Assembly (NCBI GenBank): GCA_037200385.1
Contig: JBBCGL010000001.1
Span: forward strand, 1,302,001-1,366,000
Direction: 5' to 3'
DNA length: 64,000 bases
From: Rhizomicrobium sp.
GTDB lineage: Bacteria > Pseudomonadota > Alphaproteobacteria > Micropepsales > Micropepsaceae
Shown: piece by piece, positions 9,677-35,138 of the stretch
How positions within the stretch are numbered: position 1 is the first letter of the stretch
Layout: every line of letters starts with the position of its first letter
Notes under the pieces: model-generated
What the model was told of the DNA's origin: nothing
Database searches by the model: none
What the model saw: only the letters and a program-made list of their open reading frames with translations
Translations under genes and position numbers: made by a program

Positions 9677-10660
9677 TTAGACTTTTGCCGCTGCGTCTTC
9701 GCCGCGCCGTCCCAAAGCGCGACCCGCGATCAGGAAGACGAGCAGCCCTGCACCGCCGACGACGACCGCGCGGATAGCAAGCTGAAACATGGGATTGCCG
9801 CCGAGGACAATTCCCGAAAGCTGTGCGCCGTCATTGAGAAAGCCGTGGACGGCAATGGTCGCCAGCACGCTGCCGCCCGTGCGATTGAAGAAATAGGCCA
9901 TCACGATCGTCGCGCCGACGCACCAGATCGCAAACAGCGGCAGCAATATCAGGCCGTAGGCGAACAGCCCCATCGCGGCCGGCGTCTGGAAGAGGATATC
10001 GCGCGAAACATGCCAGAATGCCCAGAACAGGCCCAGGACGACGCTGGCCTTGATCGGCGACATTTCACCCTGAAGCAGCGGAAGCCCGTAGCCGCGAAAA
10101 CCAAGCTCTTCCAGCAATCCGCCCTGATTGAGGAACATCGCTTCCAGAAGCAGCGGGATGGCGGCGGCGGAAAGCAAGGCGGGGTTGAAGGATACGGTCC
10201 ATCCCGCGGCGCCCGAGAAGAGAACCTGCGCAACGAAGGTGACCAATTGCACGGCCACGACAACGGCCATGAGACGCAGCCAGATCGACAGCCCTTCGGA
10301 AGCCTTGACGCCGCCAAGCCATGGACGCAGGCGGCCGAAGAGGCTCGCCAGCCCGCCCGCGCCATCCTTCATCGCGACCAGGACGATCGCCACCAGGGAC
10401 GGAATGGCCGACGCGAGCACGGCGATGACCAGCACGGGCTGGCCCCAGACGGCCTGGAGCAGCGGGAGCAGCGCGCCACCGCGGAGCGTGACGCCCGATC
10501 TCGCCATCGTATCGTGCATCAGGGACAGGAATACGAAAGGCCCGCCCTGCAATGGAAAGAACGGCTCGGGATAATACGCAAACAGAAGCGCCAACACGAA
10601 AGGAATCGCGAAGGTCCAGGCATAGAAGACCGCAAAGGGCCGATGGCGGCTTACATTCAT
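9677..10660 (-). CDS. CPBP-family intramembrane metalloprotease (CAAX/Abi type)
   Basis: About 327 residues with many hydrophobic helices, so an inner-membrane protein. All three CPBP motifs are present: EELGFRG (E184, E185, R189), FWAFWH (H217) and HGFLN (H272, N276). The ATG at 10660 is chosen; a GTG at 10669 would add three residues. The gene begins about 58 bp after the stop of the TonB receptor on the same strand, so the two are probably co-transcribed. Family members include prenyl-protein and bacteriocin-immunity proteases and the microcystin-opening enzyme MlrA. Pairing with an outer-membrane receptor and a peptide importer makes a peptide-cleaving role attractive, but that is inference. 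Confidence 0.85.
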   Translation of the reverse strand: MNVSRHRPFAVFYAWTFAIPFVLALLFAYYPEPFFPLQGGPFVFLSLMHDTMARSGVTLRGGALLPLLQAVWGQPVLVIAVLASAIPSLVAIVLVAMKDGAGGLASLFGRLRPWLGGVKASEGLSIWLRLMAVVVAVQLVTFVAQVLFSGAAGWTVSFNPALLSAAAIPLLLEAMFLNQGGLLEELGFRGYGLPLLQGEMSPIKASVVLGLFWAFWHVSRDILFQTPAAMGLFAYGLILLPLFAIWCVGATIVMAYFFNRTGGSVLATIAVHGFLNDGAQLSGIVLGGNPMFQLAIRAVVVGGAGLLVFLIAGRALGRRGEDAAAKV

Positions 10661-10717
10661 GACGAACACCGGAAGAAAACGGACGGCGCGCCGCGCCGCC
10701 CGCGTGGAAAACAGCCG

Positions 10718-12889
10718 TCAGAAATCCTTGCGTAGCCTGATGCCGATCGTCCTGGGCTGACCGACGTTGAAAAGCCGCGTATTGGGAAGCGACGGATCCG
10801 CCTCGAATGCATATTCGACGACTTTGTCCGTCAGGTTATCGGCAAACAGAGTGACGGCATAGCCTGGGCCGTCGGCTTCCAGCTGAAGATTGAGGAGCTG
10901 ATAGGCGCGCAGGCGCTGCGCCGGATTGTCGTCCGCGAAGTTATAGCGCGACGCGACGAAGGAGGCGTCGCCGCGCAGCGCCGCCGACCAATCGTCCGAG
11001 ATCGGCCAGCGATATTCGGCGCCCAAGCTCACCTTCCACTGCGGGACGAGCGGAAGCTGGTTGCCTTTCAGCGCTTCGGTCACGGGCCCGGACGGCGTGT
11101 TGAGGATGACCGTATCGGAGAGCGTCGCATCCGTGTAATTGCCGCTGAAGTTCAGCGTGAGGCGTTCCGTCAGCCTGGCCAGTCCTTCCAGTTCGACGCC
11201 CTTGCTGGTCGCGCCGCCGGCATTGTAGGTGCCGTTGAACACGGCCGCGCTGGCCGGCAATTGGATATTCTGCCAGTCCATGTAATAGGCCGCGAGATCC
11301 AACGTCAGGCGATTGTCGAACAGATCGGCCTTGACGCCGACTTCGTAGTTCCAAATCGTGTCGGGCTTGAACGTCAGCGGAAGAGGCACGCCAAGCAGAT
11401 CGAAGATGGGCTTGCTCGGGTTGGCGCCGCCGGGACGAAACCCCTTGGACACCGTCGCATAGGCCATCGTCGAATCCGCCAAATTGTATTTGAGGCTCAC
11501 CCGCGGCGCGAGTCCCGACGTGTTCTCCACGGAGGTGTTCACCAAGCCCGGGCCGGCGAACGCACCGGAAACATCGGTGTGGAATCGATCGTCTTCGTTG
11601 AAGTACCGCAGGCCCGCCGAAGCCTCCAACAGATCGGTGATGTGCCAGGTCAAGGCACCGTAAACGGCCCATTGGCGGAACCGGTAATTGAAATCGCCGT
11701 CAAGCAAAGGGCCCAAGTCGGGCGTGGTATCGATGCTGTTCAGATCGGAACGCGTGCTGTTCTTGTAAAAGGCGCCGACGATCCATTCCAGCGGCCCGGA
11801 CTGGTTCGACACGACCCTGACTTCCTGCGTGAAGATGTTGTAGTCGATCTTGTCCGGCGCGACGGCCGTCACGCCCGGCGGCAGGATGCCGAAGCCGGCG
11901 CCGGTATCGTCAGTCTTGCTCTCGGTCTGGCGCCCGAAATACGACGTCGACGATACGATGCTGGCCCAATCGGCATCGTATTTCACGGTCAGATTGTAGC
12001 GCTGGAAATTGTCGACGCGGCTTTCAGGCACGTAGCGGAACTGCTGCAAGTCCCCGTCGGATATGAAGGAGCCGTTGTTGCGCTGGTTCTCGCCCTGATA
12101 GGCCAGCGATACGGTAAGCGCCTGCGTCGGCGTCCAGGCCAGAATGCCGCGATAGTTCGTGGAACGCGAATCGTTCACGTCATTCTTGTGGAGCACCTGA
12201 TTGTCGATGAAGCCCGCATCGTTGCGCCAGCTGCCGACCACCCGCAGCGCAAGCTCGTCCTGCACGATGGGTATGTTGACCATGCCGTCGGCGCTGTAAT
12301 TTTCGCCGCCGTGGGACGTGTTGGACGTCATGCCTTGGATGGCGCCGGAAAAGGCCGACGCATCGGGCTGATGCGTGATGATCCGGATCGTGCCGCCCAG
12401 CGAGGATTCGCCGAACAGCGTCCCTTGAGGACCGCGCAACACCTCGACGTGGTCGACATCGAACACCTTCACATCGGGCTGGGCGGTCGGATCTGCGGTA
12501 ATCGGCATCTCGTCGAGATAGAAGCTGACGCTCGACTCGCCGGTCTGCGTTGAAATTCCGCGGATCGTGACCCGGTTCAGGCCCGGCGCGAACGACGCGA
12601 ATTCGAGACCCGGCACCTTGTCCGCGAAGTCCTTCAGATTGTCCGCGCCCAGCTTGCGCAACGTCGCATCGGTGAAAGCCGTTATGGACATCGGCACGGT
12701 CTGGATGGCCTCCGGGCGGCGCGTGGCGGTCACGACGACGGTTTCCACGCCGCCTCCGCCTTGGGCCCTTTGTGCGACAGCCGTATCCGCAGTCTGCGCC
12801 CATCCCGGCGACGCCCCACAAGCCAGCGCCAGAAGCGACACTGCCCCAAGGCTATGTGCCCGCATGCCTTTAAGACCCGCACTCGTCAT
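10718..12889 (-). CDS. TonB-dependent receptor (no STN domain)
   Basis: 723 residues. The signal peptide ends at about residue 31 (GWAQ). A TonB-box/plug start VETVVVTATRRPEAIQ follows at about 48-63, then a plug with ISTQTGESSVSFYLDEMP and a long barrel ending in RLRKDF, the usual aromatic terminus. It lacks the STN module and so is not sigma-coupled. The ATG is preceded by AGGGGG. The palindromic operator at 12974-13003, overlapping a TTGACA, lies about 85-115 bp upstream. It follows the Dpp-type importer genes, so it probably supplies their ligand across the outer membrane. Confidence 0.92.
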   Translation of the reverse strand: MTSAGLKGMRAHSLGAVSLLALACGASPGWAQTADTAVAQRAQGGGGVETVVVTATRRPEAIQTVPMSITAFTDATLRKLGADNLKDFADKVPGLEFASFAPGLNRVTIRGISTQTGESSVSFYLDEMPITADPTAQPDVKVFDVDHVEVLRGPQGTLFGESSLGGTIRIITHQPDASAFSGAIQGMTSNTSHGGENYSADGMVNIPIVQDELALRVVGSWRNDAGFIDNQVLHKNDVNDSRSTNYRGILAWTPTQALTVSLAYQGENQRNNGSFISDGDLQQFRYVPESRVDNFQRYNLTVKYDADWASIVSSTSYFGRQTESKTDDTGAGFGILPPGVTAVAPDKIDYNIFTQEVRVVSNQSGPLEWIVGAFYKNSTRSDLNSIDTTPDLGPLLDGDFNYRFRQWAVYGALTWHITDLLEASAGLRYFNEDDRFHTDVSGAFAGPGLVNTSVENTSGLAPRVSLKYNLADSTMAYATVSKGFRPGGANPSKPIFDLLGVPLPLTFKPDTIWNYEVGVKADLFDNRLTLDLAAYYMDWQNIQLPASAAVFNGTYNAGGATSKGVELEGLARLTERLTLNFSGNYTDATLSDTVILNTPSGPVTEALKGNQLPLVPQWKVSLGAEYRWPISDDWSAALRGDASFVASRYNFADDNPAQRLRAYQLLNLQLEADGPGYAVTLFADNLTDKVVEYAFEADPSLPNTRLFNVGQPRTIGIRLRKDF

Positions 12890-12973
12890 CCCAACCCCCT
12901 ACTCGCTGCAACTGGCCGGCTGCCGTCGCAGCGACGGACAGCCGGTACACATTCCCCGTCACAAAGAATAAGT

Positions 12974-13003
12974 TATTCTGAATTGATATGTCAATTCAGA
13001 ATA
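12974..13003. promoter_or_regulatory. Palindromic operator A upstream of TonB receptor
   Basis: A perfect inverted repeat: ATTCTGAATTGA (12975-12986), spacer TATG, and its exact complement TCAATTCAGAAT (12991-13002), with one more pair at each end. On the minus strand it contains TTGACA (12994-12989), followed after 18 bases by TATTCT, a plausible -35/-10 pair for the receptor. A protein bound here would block polymerase. The pattern ATTCT-N14-ATTCnGAA recurs at 28928 and, with N15, at 20541. The likely binder is the XRE-cupin regulator encoded at 28125. Confidence 0.7.
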
Positions 13004-13026
13004 TGAATATTTTGTGCCAGACGGTC

Positions 13027-13989
13027 TTACAGGGACTCGCTGCGCCAGCAGCGCACACGCCGCTCCGGCTGATGCAAAATGGAGTCGAGTTTCTGGGGCT
13101 GCTCGCAACCGGCGCCTGCGAAGGAGCATCGCGTCCGGAACGCGCAGCCGACCGGCGCCACAGCCGCATCAGTATCGGTATCGCCCCGATCCTCGATATC
13201 GAGGAACGTCCCACCGTCGAGCGTCGGCACCGAAGCCAGCAGCTCTCGCGTATAGGGATGACGGGGATTCTCCAATACCGCTGCTGCCGGCCCCTCCTCC
13301 ACGATCTGGCCGAGATACATGACGATAATGCGGTCTGCGAGATGGCGCACGACGGACACGTCGTGACTGATCAGCACATAGGTCAGGCCTCGCTGTGCCT
13401 GAAGTTCGAGCAGAAGATTCAAAATCTGCGCCTGAACGGAGATGTCCAGAGCCGAGGTCGGCTCATCCAGCACGATCAGCCTGGGTTCAAGCACAAGCGC
13501 GCGTGCGATCGCTATGCGCTGCCGCTGCCCGCCCGAAAATTCGTGCGGAAAGCGGTCGGCGCGATCGAGCGGCAATCCGACTTTCTCCATCATCTGCGCG
13601 ACGACCGCGCGCCGCGATGCGCGGCTTCCGATCCCCTGCGCCACAAGCGGCTCGGCGATGATGTCGCCAACCCGCATGCGGGGATTGAGGGACGACTGTG
13701 GCTCCTGGAAAACCAGTTGAACGCTGCGGCGGAACAGCTTCTCGGCGGGCCGGCCGCCGGTTACGACAGGACGGCCCTCGAACCGGATCGCGCCGTCCGT
13801 CAACGGAACCAAATTCACGATCGCTCGCGCGAGCGTGCTCTTGCCGCAGCCGGATTCTCCGACCACGCCGAGCGTCAGGCCGGACCTCAGCTCGAAGGAG
13901 ACATCGCGGAGCGCGAAAACGCCTCGCCGGCGTCCCGGCGCATCGTAGCGCACCGTTGCATGGTCGACCATCAGCACCGCATCATCCAT
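13027..13989 (-). CDS. Peptide ABC transporter ATP-binding protein (DppF-like)
   Basis: About 320 residues, starting at MDDAVLM (ATG 13989); the frame is open further upstream, but that part lies inside the preceding gene and looks unrelated. Walker A is GESGCGKS (44-51), the signature is FSGGQRQRIAIARAL, and Walker B is LIVLDEPTSALD. The C-terminal oligopeptide/dipeptide transporter extension contains HPYTRELLASVP and a cysteine-rich end (GCAFRTRCSFAGAGC), as in DppD/DppF/OppD/OppF. It overlaps the partner ATPase gene by 8 bp. It powers the importer made by the four upstream genes. Confidence 0.9.
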   Translation of the reverse strand: MDDAVLMVDHATVRYDAPGRRRGVFALRDVSFELRSGLTLGVVGESGCGKSTLARAIVNLVPLTDGAIRFEGRPVVTGGRPAEKLFRRSVQLVFQEPQSSLNPRMRVGDIIAEPLVAQGIGSRASRRAVVAQMMEKVGLPLDRADRFPHEFSGGQRQRIAIARALVLEPRLIVLDEPTSALDISVQAQILNLLLELQAQRGLTYVLISHDVSVVRHLADRIIVMYLGQIVEEGPAAAVLENPRHPYTRELLASVPTLDGGTFLDIEDRGDTDTDAAVAPVGCAFRTRCSFAGAGCEQPQKLDSILHQPERRVRCWRSESL

Positions 13990-14959
13990 GCGCAGATGCC
14001 TCCTGCACGGCCCAGCATGCCGTTTCATGCGTCTGCGAAAGCGGCGTGAAGCCGGGCTTGACCCGGCACGCCTCATGCGCCAAGCCGCAGCGCGGCGCGA
14101 ACCGGCAACCGACCGCGCGTTGGGACGGGCCGGCGGTCGCCCGCAAAGTCGGTATTGCCTGTTTCGATGCGTAGCGCTCCGGCGATGCGGCAAGAAGCGC
14201 CTGCGTGTAGGGGTGCGCCGGAGACAGAAGGACGTCGGCCGTTCGTCCCTGCTCCACGATCTGGCCGGCATGAATGACGTAGACGCGATCACAGAGGTGG
14301 CGGACGATGCCCATGTCGTGCGTTATAAGAAGGACCGACGTACCGGAGCGTCGCGCCTTGTCGCGCAGAAGACGCAGGATCTTCGCCTGCACCGTAACGT
14401 CGAGCGCCGTCGTCGGCTCGTCCGCCACCAGCACGGCGGGCGAGCATGCAAAAGCCATTGCGATAAGCACTCTTTGCCGCATGCCGCCGCTCAACATGAA
14501 AGGATAGGCGCGCATGATTCTTTCGACGTCGACGATCTGCATGTCGGCGAGCAGGCCCTTGGCCCGCGCCGACGCCTCGCGGCTGGTGGTGCGGCCATGA
14601 CGCCGGACGACCTCCGCGATCTGATCGCCGACACGCAGCAGCGGATCCAAGGCGTTGGAGGTCTCCTGAAAGATCATCGAGATCTTCGCGCCGCGGAAGT
14701 CCTCGAGCTCCGGCTCCCGCATCGCCAGCATGTCTTTTCCCAGCACCCGGATCGTGCCGCTGGCGGACCATCCCGCCTTCGGCAGAAGGCGCAGCAATGT
14801 GGTCGCCGTGACGGACTTGCCCGACCCGGATTCTCCGACCAATCCCACGATCTCGCCGGCGCCGACCGCGAGCGCGATGGCGTCGAGCACCGGCAAGGGG
14901 CCGTTGTCCGTGGCGAAGGCAAGGCTGAAGCCATCGATTTCTACGACGTGATCGCTCAT
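13982..14959 (-). CDS. Peptide ABC transporter ATP-binding protein (DppD-like)
   Basis: About 325 residues from ATG 14959 (MSDHVVEIDG). Walker A is GESGSGKS (42-49), with a MIFQETSNALDP Q-loop region, the signature LSGGMRQRVLIAMA, and VADEPTTALDV. The C-terminus has HPYTQALLAASPE and the cysteine-containing GCRFAPRCGLAHEAC typical of the dipeptide/oligopeptide group. It lies 11 bp after the dppC-like stop and overlaps the second ATPase. The two ATPases form the usual heterodimer. Confidence 0.9.
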   Translation of the reverse strand: MSDHVVEIDGFSLAFATDNGPLPVLDAIALAVGAGEIVGLVGESGSGKSVTATTLLRLLPKAGWSASGTIRVLGKDMLAMREPELEDFRGAKISMIFQETSNALDPLLRVGDQIAEVVRRHGRTTSREASARAKGLLADMQIVDVERIMRAYPFMLSGGMRQRVLIAMAFACSPAVLVADEPTTALDVTVQAKILRLLRDKARRSGTSVLLITHDMGIVRHLCDRVYVIHAGQIVEQGRTADVLLSPAHPYTQALLAASPERYASKQAIPTLRATAGPSQRAVGCRFAPRCGLAHEACRVKPGFTPLSQTHETACWAVQEASAHG

Positions 14960-14970
14960 CGCATCGGCCG

Positions 14971-15819
14971 CTATTTCTCTCGCCGCGGGTCGACCAGCGG
15001 GCCGATCGCATCGCCGATGAGGTTGAACGCCAGCGCCGTCATCAGGATCGCCAGGCCGGGCAGCAACGCGTACCACCACTGGCCAAGAATGTAGGGCTGG
15101 CCGGCATTGACCATCGCCCCCCATTCGGCGAGCGGGGGACGCGCACCAAGCCCGATGAAGCTCAACGTCGCGACGCCGAGCATCGCATTGCCGACGTCGA
15201 GCGTCGCCAGCACCAGCATGGACGAGAAGACGTTGGGAATGACATGGCGGACGAGAACGTGCCAGCGGCCGGCGCCGAAGGTTCGCGCCGCCTGCACGAA
15301 GTTCCGTTTGCGTATCCCCAGCGCCAGCCCGCGCGCGACACGGCCATAGCCGGGGATGCCCAGCACGCCGATGGCGATCATGGCATTGATCAGGCTCGGA
15401 CCCAGCGCGGCCGCCAGCGCCAATGCAACGACCAGTCCGGGCAGTGCCATCACGATATCCATGATGCGCATGATGAGGGCATCGATCCAGCCGCCCGCGA
15501 GACCGGAAAAACAGCCGATCAGCGTGCCCGCGCCGGCGCCGATCGCGACCACGCCGAGGCCCACGCCCAACGACGCATGGGCGCCCCACAGAATGCGCGA
15601 GAAGATGTCCCTGCCGACTTCGTCGGTCCCGCCCCAGTGCGCCAGGCTCGGAGGCGCCAGCCGGGCTGCCGCATCGATGAGATCGGGATCATATGGCGCA
15701 ATCAGCGGCGCCAGGCAGGCGCCGGCGAACACGACGCCGAGAATGATCAAGCCGGTTATCGACAAGGGGCTCGAGACGAGATGCCGCAACAGCTCCCGCC
15801 CGGGAGAACGCGTCGTCAT
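14971..15819 (-). CDS. Peptide ABC transporter permease (DppC-like)
   Basis: About 282 residues from ATG 15819 (MTTRSPGREL). It has an N-terminal transmembrane helix (SLSITGLIILGVVFAGACLAPL), the OppC-type segment YDPDLIDAAARL, LAHWGGTDEVGRDIFSRILWGAHASL, and the permease EAA-loop region (AARTFGAGRWHVLVRHVIPN). The frame is open upstream but that part is not homologous to the family. It starts 23 bp after the DppB-like gene. Inner-membrane subunit of the importer. Confidence 0.9.
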   Translation of the reverse strand: MTTRSPGRELLRHLVSSPLSITGLIILGVVFAGACLAPLIAPYDPDLIDAAARLAPPSLAHWGGTDEVGRDIFSRILWGAHASLGVGLGVVAIGAGAGTLIGCFSGLAGGWIDALIMRIMDIVMALPGLVVALALAAALGPSLINAMIAIGVLGIPGYGRVARGLALGIRKRNFVQAARTFGAGRWHVLVRHVIPNVFSSMLVLATLDVGNAMLGVATLSFIGLGARPPLAEWGAMVNAGQPYILGQWWYALLPGLAILMTALAFNLIGDAIGPLVDPRREK

Positions 15820-15842
15820 CGTTGTCTCTGCGAACCCGCTCA

Positions 15843-16859
15843 CTACCCGATCTCCCGGATCTGCGGATCGATCGCAAGATAGATGAGATCGACGGCGAGG
15901 TTGGCCAGCACATAGACCAGCGACACGATCACCGTGAATCCCATGATGACGGGGAAATCGAGCGCGAAAATCGCGTTGAGGACATAGGAACCGGCGCCCG
16001 GCCACGCGAATATCGTCTCGACCACGATGGAGCCGAACAGCAGGGAGCCGATCGCCAGGCCGGCCACGGTCACCAACGGCAAAAGGGCGTTGCGCAGCGC
16101 ATGGCGAAGGATGATCGTCCAGCGCCGCAGGCCCATCGCCCGGGCGGTGCGCACATAGTCCTCGTTCAAAGCCTCCAGCATCGACGTGCGTACCAGCCGC
16201 ATGAATCCGCCCATGGTGGAGAACGAAAGCGTCAGCACCGGAAGGATCATGTGCGCCAACGCGCTGTCGAAGACGGCGACGTCGCCCGCCAGCAAGCTGT
16301 CGACAAGAAGCATGCCGGTGACGACGGGCGGCGGCGTGAGCGCCGGATCGAGCCGCCCGGCACCGGGCAGAAGATTCCATTCCCCGTAAAGGAGCAACAG
16401 AAGCAGCAGCCCCAGCACGAAGCGCGGCGTCGATACGCCTGCGATGGCGAGGAGGCGCAACAGATGGTCGATCCAGCTATCGGCATAGACCGCCGACAGG
16501 ACGCCGAGCACGAGCGCCAGCGCGATCGAGACCAGGAGCGCGGCCAGCATCAGCTCCACAGTCGCGGGAAAATATTCGAACAGTTCGGTCAGGACGGGGC
16601 GATGCGTCAGCACGGATACGCCGAGGTCACCTCGGACCAGTTGCGCCAGATAGGCGAGGTATTGGACATAGAGCGGCCGGTCGAGACCCAGCTGTTGCCG
16701 GATTTTGGCGATGGCCTCGGCGCCGGCATGCGGTCCGGCGACGAGTTGCGCCGGATCGCCCGGAATCAAATGGGAAATCGCGAAGGTCAGCAGGGTCACG
16801 CCCAGCAGCACGCCCACAAGCATGCCGAGGCGCCGCACTATCATCGTTGATATGGACAA
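15843..16859 (-). CDS. Peptide ABC transporter permease (DppB-like)
   Basis: 338 residues, usual length for DppB/OppB. An N-terminal helix (LGMLVGVLLGVTLLTFAISHLIPGDPA) is followed by the conserved GLDRPLYVQYLAYLAQLVRGDLGVS segment, and later by the EAA-type loop (RTARAMGLRRWTIILRHALRNALLPLVT). ATG at 16859 is used; a second ATG 15 bp on (MIVRRLGML) is possible. It lies 12 bp after the binding-protein gene. Inner-membrane subunit of the importer. Confidence 0.92.
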   Translation of the reverse strand: MSISTMIVRRLGMLVGVLLGVTLLTFAISHLIPGDPAQLVAGPHAGAEAIAKIRQQLGLDRPLYVQYLAYLAQLVRGDLGVSVLTHRPVLTELFEYFPATVELMLAALLVSIALALVLGVLSAVYADSWIDHLLRLLAIAGVSTPRFVLGLLLLLLLYGEWNLLPGAGRLDPALTPPPVVTGMLLVDSLLAGDVAVFDSALAHMILPVLTLSFSTMGGFMRLVRTSMLEALNEDYVRTARAMGLRRWTIILRHALRNALLPLVTVAGLAIGSLLFGSIVVETIFAWPGAGSYVLNAIFALDFPVIMGFTVIVSLVYVLANLAVDLIYLAIDPQIREIG

Positions 16860-16871
16860 GGGCGATCCCGA

Positions 16872-19564: not shown

Positions 19565-19565
19565 G

Positions 19566-20498: not shown

Positions 20499-20540
20499 GA
20501 CGAGGCTTCCTCCAGCTTGTCAGAGAAACTAGCATAGTAT

Positions 20541-20568
20541 ATTCTCATATGGAATGTTTAATTCCAAA
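20541..20568. promoter_or_regulatory. Operator-like site C in a divergent promoter region
   Basis: ATTCT (20541-20545), 15 bases, then ATTCCAAA (20561-20568), related to operators A and B, which have 14 bases between the halves. It also contains TGGAAT-GTTTA-ATTCCA, a shorter inverted repeat. It lies between the BKACE operon (start 20498, minus) and soxB (start 20589, plus), so it could control both. The match is weaker than A versus B. Confidence 0.5.
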
Positions 20569-20588
20569 ATGATATATCCAGAGGGCAT

Positions 20589-21839: not shown

Positions 21840-21850
21840 CGGGCCCAGCG

Positions 21851-27006: not shown

Positions 27007-28133
27007 TGACGAAAGATTTGCCGATCGTGGAACTCGCCGCCTCGCCGCGGAACAATGGCCGCGCGCATGGGGAAGCCCTGCGCGACAAGATCGCCGGCAT
27101 TCTCGAACTGTGGCGCGCGACCACCACGCTTCCCGGCGGACTCTCGTTTCAGGATTTCATCGAACGCTTCCTGGCCGAAACACGTTTTACCGATCAGATA
27201 CGGCACCACATGCCGCCCTTGATGGAGGAAATCGCCGGTATCGCCGACGGCGCGAACCAGCCCCCCGACCTGGTGCTGGCCTTCCAGTTCGGCGACGAGG
27301 CGCGCTGGTACCTGCGCGATCGCTTCGCGGAGCCGGCGCGCGGCGACCGCTGCAGCAGCCTCGGCGCCGTCGGCGACGCAAGCGGTGCGACCGTGATAGC
27401 GCAGAACATCGATGTCGGCGCCTGGGCCGACGGCGCGCAAGCCGTTCTTCGGCTGCGCGACGCAGTGACCGGCGGCGAGACGCTCATATTCACGGTCGCG
27501 GGCATGATCGGCATGAACGGAATCAGCGGCAACGGCATCGGGCTGTGCTGCAATACCCTGCTGCAGCTCGATCCCGATCCCGCCGGCCTGCCGGTCGCGG
27601 CGATCGTCCGCCGCACCTTGGCGAGCAGGGATTTCCAGGAAGCGGCGGAGTTTCTCAGGACCGTTCCGCATGCGTCGGGACAGAACTACCTGCTGGCCGG
27701 CCGCCACGACGTGATCAATTTCGAATGCAGCGCCGGCGGCGCGGTGCCGTTCCGGCTGGACGGCCGTTCGGATCGCGTCGTCCATACCAACCATCCGTTG
27801 ATCAGCCCTTTCACCGCCCGCTTCGCGGACTGGCGCAAGAGAGCGCCCGACGCACTCGACGAGGCATTGGAAACCAGCAGCCTGCGGCGGCTCGAGAGCC
27901 TGAAGGCGCGATTCGCCGCGTCGCGGGGGCGATGCTCCGTCGGCGACGCGCAGGCCGCGCTGCGCGCGCGCGACGACCCGTCCTACCCGGTCTGCCGGGA
28001 AGCCGTCCCGGACGGCTGGATGACGATCGGCGCGACGGTCTTCGAGATCGGCGACGAGCCCGTCATGCATGTCGCTCCGGGCGCGCCCTCGCAATGCGAA
28101 TTTCTCGCTCTCGCGGCCGCCCGTTCAGCCTGA
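27003..28133 (+). CDS. C45-family autoproteolytic acyltransferase/amidase (IAT-like)
   Basis: 376 residues. The family includes fungal acyl-CoA:6-aminopenicillanic acid acyltransferase and bacterial linear-amide hydrolases of the Ntn fold. Seen: an N-terminal helical part with NGRAHGEALRDKI, then GDRCSSLGAVG, where Cys117 would become the N-terminal nucleophile after self-cleavage. GATVIAQNIDVGAW, NGISGNGIGLCCNTL and VHTNHPLIS match the family core. It is the last gene of the sox operon and its 3' end overlaps that of the convergent regulator by 9 bp. Specific substrate unknown; amide-bond removal before N-demethylation is a reasonable guess. Confidence 0.85.
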   Translation: MMTKDLPIVELAASPRNNGRAHGEALRDKIAGILELWRATTTLPGGLSFQDFIERFLAETRFTDQIRHHMPPLMEEIAGIADGANQPPDLVLAFQFGDEARWYLRDRFAEPARGDRCSSLGAVGDASGATVIAQNIDVGAWADGAQAVLRLRDAVTGGETLIFTVAGMIGMNGISGNGIGLCCNTLLQLDPDPAGLPVAAIVRRTLASRDFQEAAEFLRTVPHASGQNYLLAGRHDVINFECSAGGAVPFRLDGRSDRVVHTNHPLISPFTARFADWRKRAPDALDEALETSSLRRLESLKARFAASRGRCSVGDAQAALRARDDPSYPVCREAVPDGWMTIGATVFEIGDEPVMHVAPGAPSQCEFLALAAARSA

Positions 28134-28826
28134 CTCGCCCTTGGCGTCCTTGCGTGCGGTCGGCCGCTGCAGGTGCTCGAATTCCGCGATGTTGGTCAGG
28201 CCCTGCGCCGCCAGCGCGCGCTCCATTTCCATGAACTTCTTGTCTTCCGAGGCGGTGACGACAATGCAGGTGGCGCGCTTGCCTTTAGGCGCCGTCAGAT
28301 TGTGACGCATCCGGATGTCGAAATAGATGCTGTCGCCGGCCTTGAGCGTGCGGTTTTCGTAGAACTCGCTGTGAAAGATGATCGTGCCGTCCAGAACGTA
28401 CAGAAATCGCTCCCCGTAATAATCGCCGAGTTCCAGCTTCGGCATGGCTCCGTCGCCGAGGATCTCGGCGAACGTCGCGATCATCAGCCTGTCCTTCACT
28501 TCGATGGCCAGCTGCCTGTGGCGGATATTGCGCCATTGAACGAGCTTTCCGTCGCTGCCGCGATCGATGGAGAACCGCGCAGAGGCCGCCATTCCGCGCG
28601 CGGAGGACGGCTCTTCGCGAAACAGCTCCGAGATGTCGCAGTCGAGCTTGCGGGCGACATCGACGAGCTTGTCGTAGGACAGCGACATCAGATCGTTTTC
28701 GATCTTCGACAGGCTCGACTGCGAAATGCCGATGACATCGCACATCTTGACCATGCTCCAGCCGCGGTCCGTGCGCAGCCGCTTCAGGTTGTGACCCAAG
28801 CTCGGTCCTGTTTCCTTGTCCGCCAT
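28125..28826 (-). CDS. XRE-family regulator with C-terminal cupin domain
   Basis: About 233 residues from ATG 28826; the longer upstream frame is rejected because it runs through the promoter region and is not family-like. The N-terminal helix-turn-helix (about 10-64) reads LGHNLKRLRTDRGWSMVKMC, then IGISQSSLSKIENDL. The C-terminal cupin (about 145-215) includes GERFLYVLDGTIIFHSEFYENRTLKAGDSIYFDIRMRHNL. Such proteins (PuuR-like) sense small metabolites and usually repress adjacent catabolic genes. The gene lies between two plus-strand operons of the locus, with operator B about 100 bp upstream. It is the obvious candidate to bind sites A, B and C. Confidence 0.9.
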   Translation of the reverse strand: MADKETGPSLGHNLKRLRTDRGWSMVKMCDVIGISQSSLSKIENDLMSLSYDKLVDVARKLDCDISELFREEPSSARGMAASARFSIDRGSDGKLVQWRNIRHRQLAIEVKDRLMIATFAEILGDGAMPKLELGDYYGERFLYVLDGTIIFHSEFYENRTLKAGDSIYFDIRMRHNLTAPKGKRATCIVVTASEDKKFMEMERALAAQGLTNIAEFEHLQRPTARKDAKGESG

Positions 28827-28927
28827 GTTCGTCCTTTTCCCGACACCCATGCCCGATTGGGCCGCGGCACGGGCATGCGCGCTGGTTAGCCCAATCCCGG
28901 CGCGGCGTCGATGAACAAGCGGGCTAT

Positions 28928-28954
28928 ATTCTTTATTGACATAATTATTCCGAA
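28928..28954. promoter_or_regulatory. Operator-like site B between regulator and aminotransferase operon
   Basis: ATTCT (28928-28932), 14 bases, then ATTCCGAA (28947-28954). Read on the minus strand it matches palindrome A at 21 of 28 positions, including TATGTCAAT and AGAAT. A TTGACA (28936-28941) lies inside it in the plus direction, with TACGAT 19 bases further on. It sits about 100 bp upstream of the regulator start on one side and about 80 bp upstream of the aminotransferase ATG on the other, so it fits both autoregulation and control of the downstream operon. Confidence 0.6.
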
Positions 28955-29034
28955 ATACGATACGATATGGCGAATTTGGTTTATCCTGCCCGCGACGGTG
29001 CCGCCACGATCCGAGGCACGTGAAGAGGAATTGC

Positions 29035-30381
29035 ATGCCTATCGTAATGCCCGACGCGGAAGCGGCCTCGCGATCGCCGGCGTCCGCCGCTCTCTTCGCG
29101 CGCGCGCGCGCGGTTATGCCAGGCGGTAATTCGCGGCTCACGATTTTCTTTCCGCCTTTCCCACCCTACGCGGCGCACGGATCCGGCTATACGGTGACGG
29201 ACATCGACGGTGTAGAGCGCGTCGACTTCATCAACAACTACTCTTCGCTGATCCACGGTCATTGCCCTGCACCGATCCAGAAGGCCGTGGGCGAACAGAT
29301 CGCCCAGCTTTTCGCCGTGGGTCTGCCTACCAGGCAGGAAGTCGAACTGGCCGAATTGTTGTGCGCTCGCGTGGCGTCCATCGACCACATCCGGTTCGCC
29401 AACTCGGGGACGGAGGCAGTGATGCTGGCGATCAAGGCGGCGCGTGCCTACACCGGAAAAGCCAAAATCGCGAAGATCGAAGGTGCCTTCCACGGCGCCT
29501 ATGACCCGACGGAAATCAGCCTCGCCTCGACGCCAAGCGATTGGGGCCCCGCGGATCATCCCGCCAGTGTCGCGCTCTGCCACGGCACACCGGTGTCGAC
29601 GCTCGACGATGTCGTCGTCCTGCCGCAAAACGACATCGAGACGGCACGAAGACTGATCCGGGAAAACGCCGCCGCGCTGGCGGCCGTCATCGTCGATCCG
29701 CTCCCGTCGCGACTGAGTTTTGCCGCCGCCAGCCGCGATTTTCTCGCCATGCTCCGCGAGGAGACGACGCGGCTAAATTCCCTCCTCATCTTCGACGAGG
29801 TCTACAGTTTTAGGCTCGGTTACGGCGGCGCGCAGGAGGCGCTGGGGATACGGCCGGATTTGACCGCGCTCGGAAAGATCATCGGCGGCGGGTTGCCGGT
29901 CGGCGCCATCGGCGGAAGCCGGGACGCGATGTCGGTCTTCGCCTCGGAAGATGCCATGCCGCGTGTCGTGCACGGCGGAACCTACAATGCCAATCCGATA
30001 ACGATGGCCGCCGGACTGGCGGCGATGCGGATGCTGACGCCCGATGCGTTGAACCGGCTCGATGGTCTGGGCGAACGGCTCCGCACCGGCATGCGCGATG
30101 TCGTGAAACGCCTTGGCATTGCGGCGACCGTGCGCGGCCAAGGCTCCCTCGCAAGCCTGCGTTTTTCCGACAAGCCGGCGGACGAGTACCGCGCCATGAT
30201 GACGGACGGTGCCGATCGGGCGCTGGCGGCCCGGGTCCATCTCGGACTTCTCGACGAAGGTATCCTCTGCACGTCGACGCTCCTGTTCATCCTGTCGACG
30301 CCGATGAACGAGACGGTGATCGACACGCTGATCGAGCGTCTGGAAGCGGTCCTGCGCAAACAGACCGAAGCCGGCATATGA
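29035..30381 (+). CDS. Class III PLP aminotransferase, beta-transaminase-like (GSA-aminotransferase family)
   Basis: About 448 residues from ATG 29035, with AGAGGA just upstream; the in-frame GTG at 29020 is less likely. Seen: VMPGGNSRLTIFFPPFP (28-43), the N-terminal pattern I recall from bacterial beta-phenylalanine/beta-amino acid transaminases, where the Arg of NSR binds the carboxylate. Also seen are SGTEAVMLAI, IFDEVYSFR, and LGKIIGGGLPVGAIGG, whose Lys281 would bind PLP. Transamination of a beta-amino acid would give a beta-keto acid, the substrate class of the BKACE encoded four genes downstream. First gene of a six-gene coupled operon. Alternative: an ordinary GSA-aminotransferase-like enzyme. 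Confidence 0.8.
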   Translation: MPIVMPDAEAASRSPASAALFARARAVMPGGNSRLTIFFPPFPPYAAHGSGYTVTDIDGVERVDFINNYSSLIHGHCPAPIQKAVGEQIAQLFAVGLPTRQEVELAELLCARVASIDHIRFANSGTEAVMLAIKAARAYTGKAKIAKIEGAFHGAYDPTEISLASTPSDWGPADHPASVALCHGTPVSTLDDVVVLPQNDIETARRLIRENAAALAAVIVDPLPSRLSFAAASRDFLAMLREETTRLNSLLIFDEVYSFRLGYGGAQEALGIRPDLTALGKIIGGGLPVGAIGGSRDAMSVFASEDAMPRVVHGGTYNANPITMAAGLAAMRMLTPDALNRLDGLGERLRTGMRDVVKRLGIAATVRGQGSLASLRFSDKPADEYRAMMTDGADRALAARVHLGLLDEGILCTSTLLFILSTPMNETVIDTLIERLEAVLRKQTEAGI

Positions 30382-31400
30382 ACGAGCTTCCAAGGCCATA
30401 TCTGGTCTTCCTCGGCGATCTCGATGACGGACCCGCCGCCAAGACCGCCTACGGCATGCGTGACTGGGCGCCGGAGGCATGCATCGGACAATGGTCTTTG
30501 CCGGAAGGACGGGTCGATCTCGGCTTCGCGCAGCTCGATCCCCGCGAGGCCCGCGCGCGGGGCGCCCGCTCGCTCCTGATCGCTGCCGCCCCCTTTGGCG
30601 GCGGTCTTCCCGATCACTGGATTCCGCCGCTCCTGGAAGCGCTGCAAGCCGGCCTCGATATCGTCAGCGGACTGCACCTGCGACTGTCGTCCGTCGCCCC
30701 GCTCGCAGCAGCCGCGCAGGCGCAGGGGCGTGCGCTGTACGACGTCCGGCACGGCCAATACGAACGCAGCGTGGCGAGCGGGCGCAAGCGCACCGGCAAG
30801 CGGCTCTTGATGGTCGGCACCGACTGTTCCTCGGGCAAGAAATACACCGCGCTGAGCCTCGCGCGCGCGATGCGCAGGCAGGGCCGACCGGCCACCTTCC
30901 GCGCGACCGGCCAGACCGGAATCATGATCTCCGGCGGCGGCATCGCGGTGGATGCCGTCGTCAGCGACTTCCTGGCCGGTGTCGCGGAGCGTCTTTCGCC
31001 CGATTCATCGCCCGAGCACTGGGATGTGATCGAGGGACAAGGCTCGCTCTTCCATCCCGCTTATGCCGCCGTCACGCTCGGCCTGCTGCACGGTTCCCAG
31101 CCCGACGCGATGGTGCTGTGCCACGATCCGATCCGCAAGCACATCGGCAACTATCCGGACTACCCGCTGCCGTCTCTCACCGAAGCCATCGATCTCTATC
31201 AACGGCTCGGCCGCCTCACAAACCCCGCGGCGCGGTTCGTGGGCGTCAGCCTCAACACCTCGAAGCTCGGCACCGCGGAAGCGACCGCCACGCTTCGCGC
31301 GGTGGAGGCGGAGACGGGTCTTATCGCATTCGACCCGCTCAAAGGCGATCTCACGCCGCTGTTCGCCCGGTTGGACGAGACCGTATGCTCACCCTCCTGA
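30378..31400 (+). CDS. DUF1611 P-loop protein (DgcN-like)
   Basis: 340 residues. The N-terminal Rossmann-like half has RSLLIAAAPFGGGLPDHWIPPLLEAL and GLDIVSGLH; the C-terminal P-loop half has MVGTDCSSGKKYTALSLA (about 145-162), ATGQTGIMISGGGIAVDAVVSDF and IEGQGSLFHPAYAAVTLGLLHG. The family includes DgcN, reported as an N-acyltransferase in D-glutamate catabolism acting with the epimerase-type DgcA. Here the next gene is indeed an enolase-superfamily epimerase overlapping by 16 bp. A D-amino acid acylation role is inferred from that pairing. Confidence 0.8.
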   Translation: MNELPRPYLVFLGDLDDGPAAKTAYGMRDWAPEACIGQWSLPEGRVDLGFAQLDPREARARGARSLLIAAAPFGGGLPDHWIPPLLEALQAGLDIVSGLHLRLSSVAPLAAAAQAQGRALYDVRHGQYERSVASGRKRTGKRLLMVGTDCSSGKKYTALSLARAMRRQGRPATFRATGQTGIMISGGGIAVDAVVSDFLAGVAERLSPDSSPEHWDVIEGQGSLFHPAYAAVTLGLLHGSQPDAMVLCHDPIRKHIGNYPDYPLPSLTEAIDLYQRLGRLTNPAARFVGVSLNTSKLGTAEATATLRAVEAETGLIAFDPLKGDLTPLFARLDETVCSPS

Positions 31401-32368
31401 CCGGAGCAATCTCCTGGAGGCTGCGCGAACCGTTCACGATCGCGCGCGGGACGGCGTCGACCGCGGACGGCGTGCTCGTCGTGCTCTTCGACGAGGACGG
31501 CCATATCGGCAGGGGTGAGGCCTATGGTGTCAATTATCGCCACGAAACGCCCGATACAATGCTCGCCCAGATCGCTGCTGCGGCGGCGGATATCCGCGCC
31601 GGAATTGGTCGCCGGGAATTGCTCGGCCTCCTGCCCGCCGGCGGCGCGCGTTGCGCCGTCGATGCCGCGCTTTGGGATATCGAGGCCAAGCGTTCCGGCA
31701 TTCCGGCATGGCGAAGCGCCGGCCTGCCTCCGCCCCTTCCGAAAACCAGCGCCGTCACGATCGGGATCGGCGATCCGGCCCGGATGCGCGCACGCGCCGC
31801 CGAACTTAGCCACCATACCGTGCTCAAGATAAAAGTGGACGCAAACGACCCCCTTTCGCTGCTCCAAGCAGTGCGTGAGGGCGCGCCGCGGCCGGCGATC
31901 ATTCTCGATCCCAACGCCTCCTGGTCCATCGACTTGCTGAACCGCCTGCTGCCCCGATTGCGCGACCTGGGCGTTGTGCTGATCGAGCAGCCGCTGGCGC
32001 CGGAGGACGACGCGGCGCTGGCCGATATCCCCCGCGCCATACCGATCTGCGCCGATGAAAGCATCCACGGCCCCGGCGACCTCGATCGCATTGCGGGGCG
32101 ATACGACGTCGTCAACATCAAGCTCGACAAAACCGGCGGCCTCACGGCCGCGCTCGACCTTGCCGATGCGGCGCAGGCGCGCGGATTCCGGCTGATGGTC
32201 GGATGCATGTGGGGAAGCTCCCTGGCGATGGCGCCGGCCGCGGTATTGGCGCAGCGCTGCCAGTTCGTGGATCTGGACGGGCCGCTGCTGCAGGTCGGCG
32301 ATCACCAGCCTGCCATCCGGTACGACGACGGCCTGATGGCATTTCCGCAACGCGAATTGTGGGGCTGA
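31385..32368 (+). CDS. Enolase-superfamily epimerase (dipeptide epimerase / DgcA-like)
   Basis: About 327 residues from ATG 31385, inside the end of the DUF1611 gene. Muconate-lactonising-enzyme subgroup features: KxK base pair at K148/K150 (LKIKVDAN), metal ligands at D175 (ILDPN), E201 (LIEQPL) and D224 (CADES), and the second base NIKLDKTGG. The subgroup includes L-Ala-D/L-Glu epimerases and N-acylamino acid racemases. Paired with DUF1611 it suggests racemisation of an N-acylated amino acid, as reported for DgcN/DgcA. The precise substrate is unknown. Confidence 0.82.
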   Translation: MLTLLTGAISWRLREPFTIARGTASTADGVLVVLFDEDGHIGRGEAYGVNYRHETPDTMLAQIAAAAADIRAGIGRRELLGLLPAGGARCAVDAALWDIEAKRSGIPAWRSAGLPPPLPKTSAVTIGIGDPARMRARAAELSHHTVLKIKVDANDPLSLLQAVREGAPRPAIILDPNASWSIDLLNRLLPRLRDLGVVLIEQPLAPEDDAALADIPRAIPICADESIHGPGDLDRIAGRYDVVNIKLDKTGGLTAALDLADAAQARGFRLMVGCMWGSSLAMAPAAVLAQRCQFVDLDGPLLQVGDHQPAIRYDDGLMAFPQRELWG

Positions 32369-32371
32369 GCG

Positions 32372-33331
32372 ATGCGAAAAACGGTCGCTATTGTCGGTTG
32401 CGGCGTCATCGGGCGGAGCTGGGCGATCGTTTTCGCCCGCGCCGGCGCGCAAGTCAGGCTTTTCGACATCCAGCCGAAAGCCGCGCGCCAGGCCTTGCGG
32501 AAGGCGCGGCAGGCATTGCGTGCGCTGGAAATCGGCAAGACCGGCATCGAGACGATCATGGGCCGAATGCAAGCGGTGACCACGCTGGACGAAGCGCTGG
32601 ACGGCGCCGACTACGTCCAGGAGAGCGTCGCGGAAAACGTAGAGGTCAAGCGCGGCATCTTCGAGCAGATGGATGCGATCGCCCCGCCGCGCTGCATATT
32701 GGCGAGCTCCTGCTCCGCCATCCCCCCGGCGGACTTTCTGGCGGGGCTGCCGCATGAGGAGCGCTGCCTTATCGCGCACCCGTTCAACCCGCCGCACCTG
32801 ATCCCGCTCGTCGAGCTGGTTCCGGCGCCGAAGACGGCGCCCAAAACGATAGCCGAAGCGAAGCGCCTGCTGTCGCAAAGCGGGCAGCATCCCGTTCTGC
32901 TGAAGCGGCCCATCAAGGGCTTCATCGGCAACCGCCTGCAGGCGGCCGTCGTCAACGAGATCATGCATCTTGTCGCCGAAGAGGTGGCCAGCCCGGCGGA
33001 CCTCGATGCCTGCCTGCGCTGGGGGCTGGGGCTCCGCTGGAGCCTGATGGGCCCGCTGGAGACCATGGACCTCAACGCCGATGGCGGGATCGCCGATTAT
33101 ATCGGCAAGTTCGGCAACGACTACCAAGCGCTCGGCGGCGAGCTCGGCTGTCGCGAAGCCTGGCAGGCGCGCGCGATCAAGACCGTGATCGAAGCCCGCC
33201 GTTCCGTTCTTCGGCTGGACCGCATCGGCGCGCGCGTCGCCTGGCGCGATCGCAACCTTCTGCGGCTGCGCGAACTGATCGAACCACACCCTGCCGGCAA
33301 GCGCTCGAAGCGAAAAGGGAGTCGACAATGA
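32372..33331 (+). CDS. 3-Hydroxyacyl-CoA dehydrogenase-family protein (lambda-crystallin/L-gulonate or carnitine dehydrogenase type)
   Basis: 319 residues, the length of single-domain lambda-crystallin-type enzymes that oxidise free 3-hydroxy acids rather than CoA esters. NAD motif VGCGVIGRSWA (G9, G11, G14); VQESVAEN; catalytic His136 in CLIAHPFNPPHLIPLVELV; C-terminal GFIGNRLQAAVVNE and GPLETMDLNADGG. It overlaps the BKACE gene by 4 bp, so it most likely makes the beta-keto acid that BKACE cleaves. L-carnitine dehydrogenase plus dehydrocarnitine-cleaving BKACE is a known pairing of this kind, but the substrate here is not proven. Confidence 0.85.
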   Translation: MRKTVAIVGCGVIGRSWAIVFARAGAQVRLFDIQPKAARQALRKARQALRALEIGKTGIETIMGRMQAVTTLDEALDGADYVQESVAENVEVKRGIFEQMDAIAPPRCILASSCSAIPPADFLAGLPHEERCLIAHPFNPPHLIPLVELVPAPKTAPKTIAEAKRLLSQSGQHPVLLKRPIKGFIGNRLQAAVVNEIMHLVAEEVASPADLDACLRWGLGLRWSLMGPLETMDLNADGGIADYIGKFGNDYQALGGELGCREAWQARAIKTVIEARRSVLRLDRIGARVAWRDRNLLRLRELIEPHPAGKRSKRKGSRQ

Positions 33332-34260
33332 AAAAGGCCAAGAAGGTCATCGTCACCTGTGCGGTGACCGGCTCGATCCACACCCCCTCGATGTCGGCGC
33401 ATCTTCCGATCACGCCGGAGGAGATCACGCGCGCCGCGGTCGAGGCCGCCGGGGCGGGCGCGGCCATCGTGCATCTGCACGCCCGCGATCCGCTGGACGG
33501 ACGCCCGAGCGCCGATCCGGAATTGTTCCTGCAGTTCCTCCCGCGCATCAAGCAGCAATGCGGCGCGGTGCTCAACGTCACGACCGGCCATGGGCCGGGA
33601 ATCTCCGTCGAAGACCGCCTGCGCGCCGCCAAGCGGGCGAGCCCCGAGCTCGCTTCGCTCAACATGGGCTCCTTCAACGCCGGCGTGATGCCGACCGATG
33701 CCGTCAAGGCCTGGCGATTCGACTGGGAAAAGCCCTATCTCGAGGCGTTCAAGGGCGGGATCGCGGCGAACAGCTACGAAACCATGGAACGGATCCTGAC
33801 GGAGGTCGGGCTCGAGCACGGCACCCGCTTCGAATACGAATGCTACGACATCGGCCACCTCTATGCCCTCGCCTATTTCGCCGAGCGCGGCCTCGCCAAG
33901 CCGCCCTTCTTCATCCAGTGCATATTCGGTCTCATGGGTGGCGCCGGCCCGGATCCGCAGAATCTCACTTATATGGTGAACGTCGCCGACAAATTGTTCG
34001 GCGACGACTATTACCTTTCGGTATTCGCCGCCGGACGCCACCAGATGCGCTTCGTCACGCTCGGCGCGATCATGGGCGGATCGGTCCGCGTCGGGCTTGA
34101 GGACAGCCTGTACATCGCCAAGGGGCAATTGGCGACCAGCAACGCGCAACAGGTCGCGAAGATTCGCGGCATCCTGGAGGCCCTGTCGTTCGACGTGGCG
34201 ACGCCGGACGAGGCGCGCGCGATGCTCCATCTCAAAGGCGCGCATGAGGTCGCGTTTTGA
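33328..34260 (+). CDS. Beta-keto acid cleavage enzyme (BKACE) family protein, copy 2
   Basis: 310 residues. HLHARDP with H49/H51 and VRVGLEDSL give the zinc and substrate-binding core; the N-terminal ITCAVTG-type segment is present as VTCAVTGSIHTP. Compared with copy 1 (19566), the active-site-facing stretches differ (GHGPGISVEDR versus GQPGTFQERM; NSYETMERI versus NTFENMEYI), so the two probably act on different keto acids or different stages. It is translationally coupled to the dehydrogenase before it (ATGA) and to the next gene. Confidence 0.9.
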   Translation: MKKAKKVIVTCAVTGSIHTPSMSAHLPITPEEITRAAVEAAGAGAAIVHLHARDPLDGRPSADPELFLQFLPRIKQQCGAVLNVTTGHGPGISVEDRLRAAKRASPELASLNMGSFNAGVMPTDAVKAWRFDWEKPYLEAFKGGIAANSYETMERILTEVGLEHGTRFEYECYDIGHLYALAYFAERGLAKPPFFIQCIFGLMGGAGPDPQNLTYMVNVADKLFGDDYYLSVFAAGRHQMRFVTLGAIMGGSVRVGLEDSLYIAKGQLATSNAQQVAKIRGILEALSFDVATPDEARAMLHLKGAHEVAF

Positions 34261-35138
34261 CGGCGGCGCCATCGCGCGTGGCCGTGCTGGGCATGGGGAT
34301 CATGGGTCGCCAGATGGCCGCCCGGATAGCCCGCGCCGGTTTTCCAACACGCGTCTGGAACCGGACGGCGAGAGATTGCGAGCCGGCGATCTCGGCGGGA
34401 GCGACCGCCGCATCCACGATCGCGGAAGCCGTCGGCGACGCGGCCGCCATCGTGATCATGGTCAGCACCGGCGATGCGGTGGAGGACGTCCTTTTCGCGC
34501 CGAACGGCGTCGTCGCCGCCGCAAAGCCGGGCTGCCGCGTGATCGTCATGAGCTCCATTCCTCCGGCAGCTGCACGCGACCAAGCCGTGCGTCTTGCAAA
34601 CATCGGCGTGGTCTATCTCGACGCGCCGGTGTCCGGCGGAGAAGTCGGGGCGCGCAACGGCAGCCTCTCGATCCTGGTCGGCGGGCCTGAGGAAGAATTC
34701 GCCTCGATCAATCCCCTGCTTCGGGCGATGGGCCGGCCGAGCCACATCGGTCCGGTGGGAAGCGGCCAAGTCGCCAAGCTGGTCAATCAGACAATTGTCG
34801 GCATCACCATCGCCGCGGTCGCCGAAGCGACGCTCCTGGCAAGAGCCGTGGGTGCCGACCCCGACCGCATTCTCAACGCGCTGGGCGGGGGATTTGCCGA
34901 TTCAGCGGTGCTGCGCATCCACGGACCCCGTATGGTTGCGGCGGACTTCGCGCCGGGCGCCCACGCTGCGACACAGCTCAAGGATCTTCGCACGGCGCAG
35001 TCGCTCGCGATCCATGCGGGGCTCACCTTGCCGACCTTGCACACGGTAGAGGCGCTCTATGCGGCGATGTGCGCAAACGGACTAGCCGACCTGGATCATA
35101 GCGGTCTTTATGCCTGGCTGGAGCGACAGGTGTTCTGA
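34257..35138 (+). CDS. 3-Hydroxyisobutyrate dehydrogenase-family NAD(P) oxidoreductase
   Basis: 293 residues. NAD-binding VAVLGMGIMGRQMA near the N-terminus, substrate motif DAPVSGGEVGARNGSLSILVGG (122-143), and catalytic Lys174 in GSGQVAKLVNQ. The start is TTG at 34257, overlapping the BKACE stop (TTGA), consistent with translational coupling; a GTG further in (VAVLG) is possible. The family oxidises 3-hydroxy acids or reduces their semialdehydes (3-hydroxyisobutyrate, tartronate semialdehyde). Last gene of the operon, convergent with the creatininase-family gene 10 bp away. Confidence 0.85.
   Translation: MTAAPSRVAVLGMGIMGRQMAARIARAGFPTRVWNRTARDCEPAISAGATAASTIAEAVGDAAAIVIMVSTGDAVEDVLFAPNGVVAAAKPGCRVIVMSSIPPAAARDQAVRLANIGVVYLDAPVSGGEVGARNGSLSILVGGPEEEFASINPLLRAMGRPSHIGPVGSGQVAKLVNQTIVGITIAAVAEATLLARAVGADPDRILNALGGGFADSAVLRIHGPRMVAADFAPGAHAATQLKDLRTAQSLAIHAGLTLPTLHTVEALYAAMCANGLADLDHSGLYAWLERQVF

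Follow-up and report, generated by a model that had tools for sequence, protein, structure and literature searches.

A candidate regulon for uptake and breakdown of a peptide-like compound with a beta-amino acid part in Rhizomicrobium sp.

Gene content and layout of the locus

The locus described here lies at positions 9677..35138 of a 64,000-nucleotide stretch of DNA (the window, analysed at its full length) from Rhizomicrobium sp. (assembly GCA_037200385.1, contig JBBCGL010000001.1, positions 1,302,001 to 1,366,000 of the forward strand). It carries genes for an outer-membrane receptor, an importer, amide hydrolases, a demethylase, a transaminase and two BKACEs (beta-keto acid cleavage enzymes), and was read in an original prediction, made from the letters alone, as one coherent locus for a peptide-like compound with beta-amino, N-methyl and possibly D-amino acid parts. 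Gene families were assigned by profile search (Pfam, NCBIfam) on open reading frames, and gene starts were then refined. All the families predicted were found with small corrections only, and a gene for an XRE-cupin regulator was added to the list. The features are as follows.

9677..10669, minus: CPBP (Rce1-like) membrane protein with the general CPBP catalytic residues (Pfam PF02517, 45.9 bits, cut-off 22.4)
10718..12889, minus: TonB-dependent outer-membrane receptor (Pfam barrel and plug)
12974..13003, no strand: operator-like motif, palindromic copy, upstream of TonB-CPBP (dyad searches and shuffle tests)
13027..18452, minus: importer of DppF, DppD, DppC, DppB and a family 5 substrate-binding protein, SBP5 (Pfam ABC_tran, oligo_HPY, BPD_transp_1, SBP_bac_5)
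18446..19564, minus: SxxK hydrolase 1, SxxK1 (Pfam PF00144, 172.7 bits)
19566..20498, minus: BKACE1 (PF05853, 304.4 bits; NF053538, 439.9, cut-off 430)
20540..20568, no strand: operator-like motif between BKACE1 and soxB (dyad searches and shuffle tests)
20589..25570, plus: soxB, soxD, soxA and soxG, heterotetrameric sarcosine-oxidase-type N-demethylase (Pfam and NCBIfam profiles)
25567..27006, plus: SxxK hydrolase 2, SxxK2 (PF00144, 141.7 bits)
27003..28133, plus: C45 N-terminal-nucleophile (Ntn) amidase/acyltransferase (NF040521, 183.9, cut-off 85)
28125..28826, minus: XRE-cupin regulator (HTH_3 and Cupin_2)
28927..28954, no strand: operator-like motif between regulator and transaminase (dyad searches and shuffle tests)
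29035..30381, plus: class III transaminase, beta-amino-acid type (best solved relative 6k8h, 433.7 bits)
30378..31400, plus: DUF1611 protein, DgcN-like (NF041892, 432.4, cut-off 480)
31385..32368, plus: MR_MLE epimerase, DgcA-like (NF042940, 398.7, cut-off 400)
32372..33331, plus: 3-hydroxyacid dehydrogenase (PRK06129, 375.3, cut-off 347)
33328..34260, plus: BKACE2 (PF05853, 321.7 bits; NF053538, 474, cut-off 430)
34257..35138, plus: HIBADH-like or tartronate-semialdehyde-reductase-like dehydrogenase (PF03446 and PF14833; TIGR01505, 256.9, cut-off 340.75)

The genes are tightly packed, with few-base overlaps between neighbours inside units (junctions 19566/19564, 18452/18446, 25570/25567, 27006/27003, 30381/30378, 33331/33328 and 34260/34257), in agreement with the tightly coupled operons of the original prediction. 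By strand they form four catabolic units: BKACE1-SxxK1-SBP5-DppB-DppC-DppD-DppF and TonB-CPBP on the minus strand, and soxBDAG-SxxK2-C45 and transaminase-DgcN-DgcA-3-hydroxyacid dehydrogenase-BKACE2-HIBADH on the plus strand. The XRE-cupin gene, on the minus strand, is convergent with C45 and divergent from the transaminase gene, and its start lies in one of the three promoter regions. An open reading frame at 35110-35991 (plus strand, 293 amino acids), overlapping the end of the HIBADH-like gene, matched no family and is unlikely to be a gene.

Shared promoter motif and recurrence of gene sub-sets

The promoter regions at 12890-13026, 20499-20588 and 28827-29034 were compared against shuffles that preserve dinucleotide content. 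Their pairwise local similarity was matched by 1, 6 and 17 of 500 shuffles (the third region being taken here as 28846-29034), and all three were found to have ATATTCT-N14/15-ATTC in common; a 7-mer plus 4-mer dyad of any kind at like spacing was shared by 0 of 500 shuffled triples, and a 6+4 dyad by 1. The strict form, TATTCT-N13..16-ATTC[CA][AG]AA, is matched four times across the 5,008,785 bases of the genome, each time at one of the three promoters (one match is palindromic) and there by construction, having been read off these promoters; weight is therefore placed on the shuffle test and on its absence elsewhere, the reversed control giving 0 genome matches. The looser TATTCT-N13..16-ATTC occurs nine times in the genome, four of them at the locus, with one match for its reversed control, and the window holds four where 0.09 were expected. 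A palindrome, RGAAT-N5-ATTCY, was also tried as operator and gave 2 exact matches against 0.24 expected (2 being reached by 3 of 100 shuffles); with one mismatch it gave 5 against 4.08 expected, and it was replaced by the dyad because it was weak with a mismatch and missing from the third promoter.

An operator-like motif thus stands at all promoters of the locus, as a single regulon calls for, and since it is shared the gene set appears more than a chance row. The XRE-cupin protein most likely controls the four units by binding to this motif at the three promoters. The predicted coherence of the locus is supported by the common motif, found in its strict form nowhere else in the genome, and by sub-sets of its genes that recur in unrelated bacteria.

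For the latter, an alignment of seven C45 proteins (A1) was used as query on genome contigs and yielded 71 named C45 loci; an earlier contig search with a single C45 sequence had given no confirmed relative. Flanks were at most 10 kb and often ended by contig ends, so that a full 25-kb copy would not be visible whole and the counts near C45 are lower bounds. All four Dpp genes were found near C45 in 10 of the 71 loci, SoxA-like genes in 4, SoxB-like genes in 2 and SxxK relatives in 4. Transaminase relatives were found in 7, of which five have PGG[ND]TR (L125, L138, L150, L154, L163) and two lack it (L152, L160); at an assumed density of one such transaminase per 3 Mb, the 1.16 Mb of these loci would hold about 0.4. 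When the loci were reversed as a control, no match was obtained. C45, transaminase and BKACE stand together in Dongia mobilis (L077/L154), in genome G309 (L078) and in a Rhodospirillaceae metagenome-assembled genome (MAG; L163). SBP5, DppB and DppC were seen beside BKACE (58-59% identity), transaminase (34%) and SoxA/SoxB-like matches once in G225 and twice in G320 (L088-L090). The neighbours in L089 are by Pfam a phosphotriesterase, an MTTB protein, an M24 protein and an FAD/GcvT protein, with counterparts in the other two recognised by eye only; a methylated-amine pathway through BKACE is possible there. TonB receptor, SxxK, XRE-cupin, DgcA-like and DgcN-like genes occur together in three sphingomonad plasmids (L035-L037), the same without XRE-cupin in congener G022 (L207), and TonB, DgcA-like and DgcN-like genes in a second locus of the same genome as the window (L103).

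Among 289 genomes of the same class, C45 was found in 15 (E 1e-15), the transaminase in 58 (1e-55), BKACE in 62 (1e-80) and DgcN in 72 (1e-40); among 69 congeners, C45 was found in 4 and DgcN in 2, the genome of the window being counted in both. Co-location within the class was judged by eye from some candidates scored per genome, and many genomes are fragmented, so that some cases may have been missed; one example is the Dongia transaminase next to C45, absent from the same-class table although seen elsewhere in the analysis. Going by the coordinates listed, DgcN lies close to transaminase or BKACE in no further genome, the nearest case being 13 kb in G273. As to conservation of the whole set, which the original prediction proposed to search for while holding that homologous loci consistently split into unrelated parts would count against its reading, the outcome is in part unfavourable: sub-sets do recur together, but these are smaller and overlap one another, and scans limited by short flanks and fragmented genomes gave no second complete copy.

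Other C45 settings were also seen. The C45-transaminase pairs of L125, L138 and L150 come from Tissierellales, Anaerolineae and Spirochaetes MAGs; Pfam names among their neighbours an IlvD/Edd dehydratase (L125, L150), an M28 peptidase (L125, L138) and an M29 peptidase (L125). In L071, L112 and L119, C45 is accompanied by TonB receptors and D-serine-dehydratase-like genes (assigned by Pfam in L071 and recognised by eye in the other two), with SxxK in L112 and L119 and M81 in L071 and L112.

Enzymes, importer and paralogues

SoxB (656.5 against 529.45), SoxD (122.2 against 116.5) and SoxA (1356.8 against 1164) are above their NCBIfam cut-offs; SoxG is below its own (117.2 against 143.95) and above the Pfam cut-off (54.1 against 21). 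The complete soxBDAG of the original prediction was thereby recovered, four subunits in the order B-D-A-G, with G recognised by Pfam cut-off only. In this family the N-methyl group is passed to folate. Both BKACEs far exceed the PF05853 cut-off of 24.8 bits, and a BKACE of the locus scored 316 bits against 8rip. The transaminase aligns to the beta-Phe aminotransferase 4ao9 across a PGGNSR/PGANSR stretch, which at the sequence level marks it as a putative beta-amino acid transaminase; HemL was ruled out by this alignment and by a score of 301.7 against a cut-off of 527.3. The predicted DUF1611/epimerase pair is present by family and resembles DgcN/DgcA, whose NCBIfam equivalog cut-offs it narrowly misses on both sides (432.4 against 480, 398.7 against 400); the chemistry of DgcN and DgcA is taken here in part from the NCBIfam names.

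The C45 protein belongs to the autoproteolytic acyltransferases/hydrolases by its NF040521 score and a conserved cysteine, Cys117, which is present in all seven proteins aligned and is the putative nucleophile. Its nearest solved relative is acyl-CoA:6-aminopenicillanic acid (6-APA) acyltransferase, and Tan, an insect C45 relative, hydrolyses beta-alanyl amides. As judged by eye, no signal peptide is evident on SxxK1 (start 19564), SxxK2 or C45, and amide cleavage is therefore probably cytoplasmic, after import. The importer proteins pass Pfam but reach no NCBIfam equivalog cut-off among the matches listed, so that the predicted 'Dpp-type' stands as a family-level name only.

The other two BKACE genes of the genome and its other two close transaminases fall in three loci. 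L070, at 4.85 Mb, holds a transaminase (57%), M81, a BKACE (62%) and an S15-type peptidase. L073 (4707001-4727000; 4.71 Mb) holds at 1586-10619 an SxxK protein, an M55 D-aminopeptidase, a penicillin-amidase relative, a 3-hydroxyacid dehydrogenase and a BKACE (62%). In L072 (1474001-1494000; 1.48 Mb), at 2333-12135, a transaminase (50%) stands directly before an S58 peptidase, with two SxxK proteins and an Asp/Glu racemase, which makes it another candidate locus for unusual peptides. This placement of BKACE and transaminase paralogues beside peptidase and amidase genes suggests a diet of non-standard peptides. The 5-Mb genome also encodes six M81 (MlrC-family) proteins. Upstream of the locus lie two short-chain dehydrogenase/reductase genes and an AraC regulator, and downstream, at 35892-44295, genes for a CoA-ligase (benzoate-CoA ligase family), a salicylyl/anthraniloyl-CoA-monooxygenase-like protein, an enoyl-CoA hydratase and a tryptophan-2,3-dioxygenase-like protein, which probably form a separate tryptophan/anthranilate degradation cluster.

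Proposed function, rival explanations and known systems

With moderate confidence, the locus is read as a single regulon, induced by its substrate, that serves to import and break down a compound of peptide-like or amide-linked nature containing a beta-amino acid. A model is proposed in which the compound would enter through the TonB receptor and then the importer, while the C45 amidase and the two SxxK hydrolases would open its amide bonds in the cytoplasm. Action of the transaminase on the beta-amino acid so released would yield a beta-keto acid, which BKACE would convert with acetyl-CoA into acyl-CoA and acetoacetate, the reaction described in PMC11961710. Both dehydrogenases, the 3-hydroxyacid and the HIBADH-like one, may supply that pool or draw on it, SoxBDAG would remove N-methyl groups to folate, and the DgcN/DgcA-like pair might invert a D-configured acid, e.g. 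D-glutamate. The order from amidase to transaminase to BKACE is drawn from family chemistry and co-location; the beta-amino, N-methyl and D-amino parts first predicted are consistent with the enzyme families. More tentatively, the locus might be a previously undescribed regulon for taking up and degrading a compound like a non-ribosomal peptide. At its core would be a widespread, unrecognised module in which C45, beta-transaminase and BKACE successively convert amide-bound beta-amino acids to acyl-CoA and acetoacetate, with folate-linked N-demethylation and a D-acid epimerase added under one operator. In the open PubMed Central (PMC) literature, no title or abstract was found to describe the gene set.

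Several findings, besides the derivation of the strict motif from the promoters themselves, weigh against the single regulon. No 6+5 dyad is common to the three real promoters, and in a raw ranking, uncorrected for length, of 153 pairs from 18 intergenic regions of the window, the promoter pairs rank 4, 49 and 71, an order that is not decisive. BKACE lies near C45 in only 3 of the 71 loci (58, 59 and, in one, 26% identity), and DgcN or DgcA in none of them; BKACE, DgcN and this transaminase type are mostly apart in same-class genomes; and L208 has a BKACE (59%) with a 24% C45 relative and no transaminase relative within 20 kb.

Scavenging of D-glutamate-containing (murein-type) peptides is an unlikely alternative, in which receptor, importer, SxxK hydrolases and DgcN/DgcA-like pair would recover D-Glu peptides, and the shared control would extend to sox, transaminase and BKACE genes acting on neighbouring nutrients. 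The sphingomonad plasmid sets, the similar smaller sets in G022 and L103, and the alkaline D-peptidase that is the nearest solved protein to SxxK1 are all in its favour, but none of these sets shows a BKACE relative, both Dgc scores fall short, and murein peptides should need no N-demethylase, beta-transaminase or BKACE. Still less probable is a methylated amine or amide-linked betaine/carnitine relative, to be demethylated by Sox, with dehydrogenase and BKACE handling a quaternary or secondary amino beta-hydroxy acid. It would fit L089, where transaminase and BKACE adjoin the MTTB protein and an FAD/GcvT demethylase, and the 3-hydroxyacid dehydrogenase relative seen beside BKACE in several congeners; yet the dehydrogenase is below both carnitine-dehydrogenase cut-offs (200.3 against 592; 170.8 against 414), so the carnitine relative of the original prediction was not borne out, and two SxxK hydrolases, C45 and a TonB receptor would point to larger amides. 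That two or more unrelated catabolic systems are neighbours by chance is quite improbable: parts do occur elsewhere in separate sub-sets and a single instance of the full set was found, but the motif stands at all three promoter regions. Degradation of microcystin or nodularin by a relative of the mlr system, as once suggested, is very improbable, since the CPBP-family protein, SxxK hydrolases, beta-amino-acid-type transaminase and six M81 proteins elsewhere in the genome that recall it are offset by M81 scores of 288-429 bits (best 429.4) against an MlrC cut-off of 999 (NF041767), by an ABC importer in place of the MlrD transporter, which is of a different type, and by a CPBP protein that keeps 5 of 7 residues reported crucial in MlrA, with two replaced (W to F, E to D), the five kept being those in common with the general CPBP protein MmRce1 (by the reported residue list, with no direct MlrA alignment).

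The coherence of the locus is better supported than the original prediction could show, and the recurring set of amidase, transaminase and BKACE is a concrete lead. To our knowledge, little is understood of how bacteria feed on peptides that contain beta-, N-methyl- and D-amino acids. Together with this recurring set, a small regulon that has an operator-like motif of its own provides defined genes and a reporter promoter for substrate discovery, and could help to assign roles to proteins of the C45, DUF1611 and BKACE families, at present recognised only at the family level.

Among known systems, the mlr cluster has a CPBP-family protein and SxxK-type hydrolases (MlrB is one) in common with the locus, whereas the genome holds no protein at MlrC level, the transporter differs and the CPBP protein is not specifically MlrA-like. 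Heterotetrameric sarcosine oxidase has the same four subunits in the same soxB-D-A-G order, the sox genes here being in one unit with SxxK2 and C45. In the sphingomonad loci, receptor, SxxK, epimerase, DUF1611 and XRE-cupin homologues are found as here, and an operator-like word is shared by promoters in two of the three (L035, 1 of 500 shuffles; L037, 0 of 500; L036, 79 of 500); its sequence differs from the present motif, no BKACE, sox or beta-type transaminase relative lies within the stretch, and a peptide major facilitator superfamily transporter is annotated in two of the three where the locus has an ABC (ATP-binding cassette) importer. The DgcN-DgcA D-glutamate route, named in PMC10845958, likewise has adjacent DUF1611 and epimerase genes of matching families, while here both are just below the NCBIfam cut-offs and lie inside a locus of beta-amino-acid type. 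BKACE15 of Paracoccus denitrificans (8RIO/8RIP; PMC11961710) is of the same family, and its acetyl-CoA-dependent cleavage of beta-keto acids is presumably also carried out by the BKACEs of the locus, whereas here two BKACEs are joined with amidase, transaminase, importer and demethylase in one locus. In conclusion, the locus is a variant of known catabolic gene clusters.

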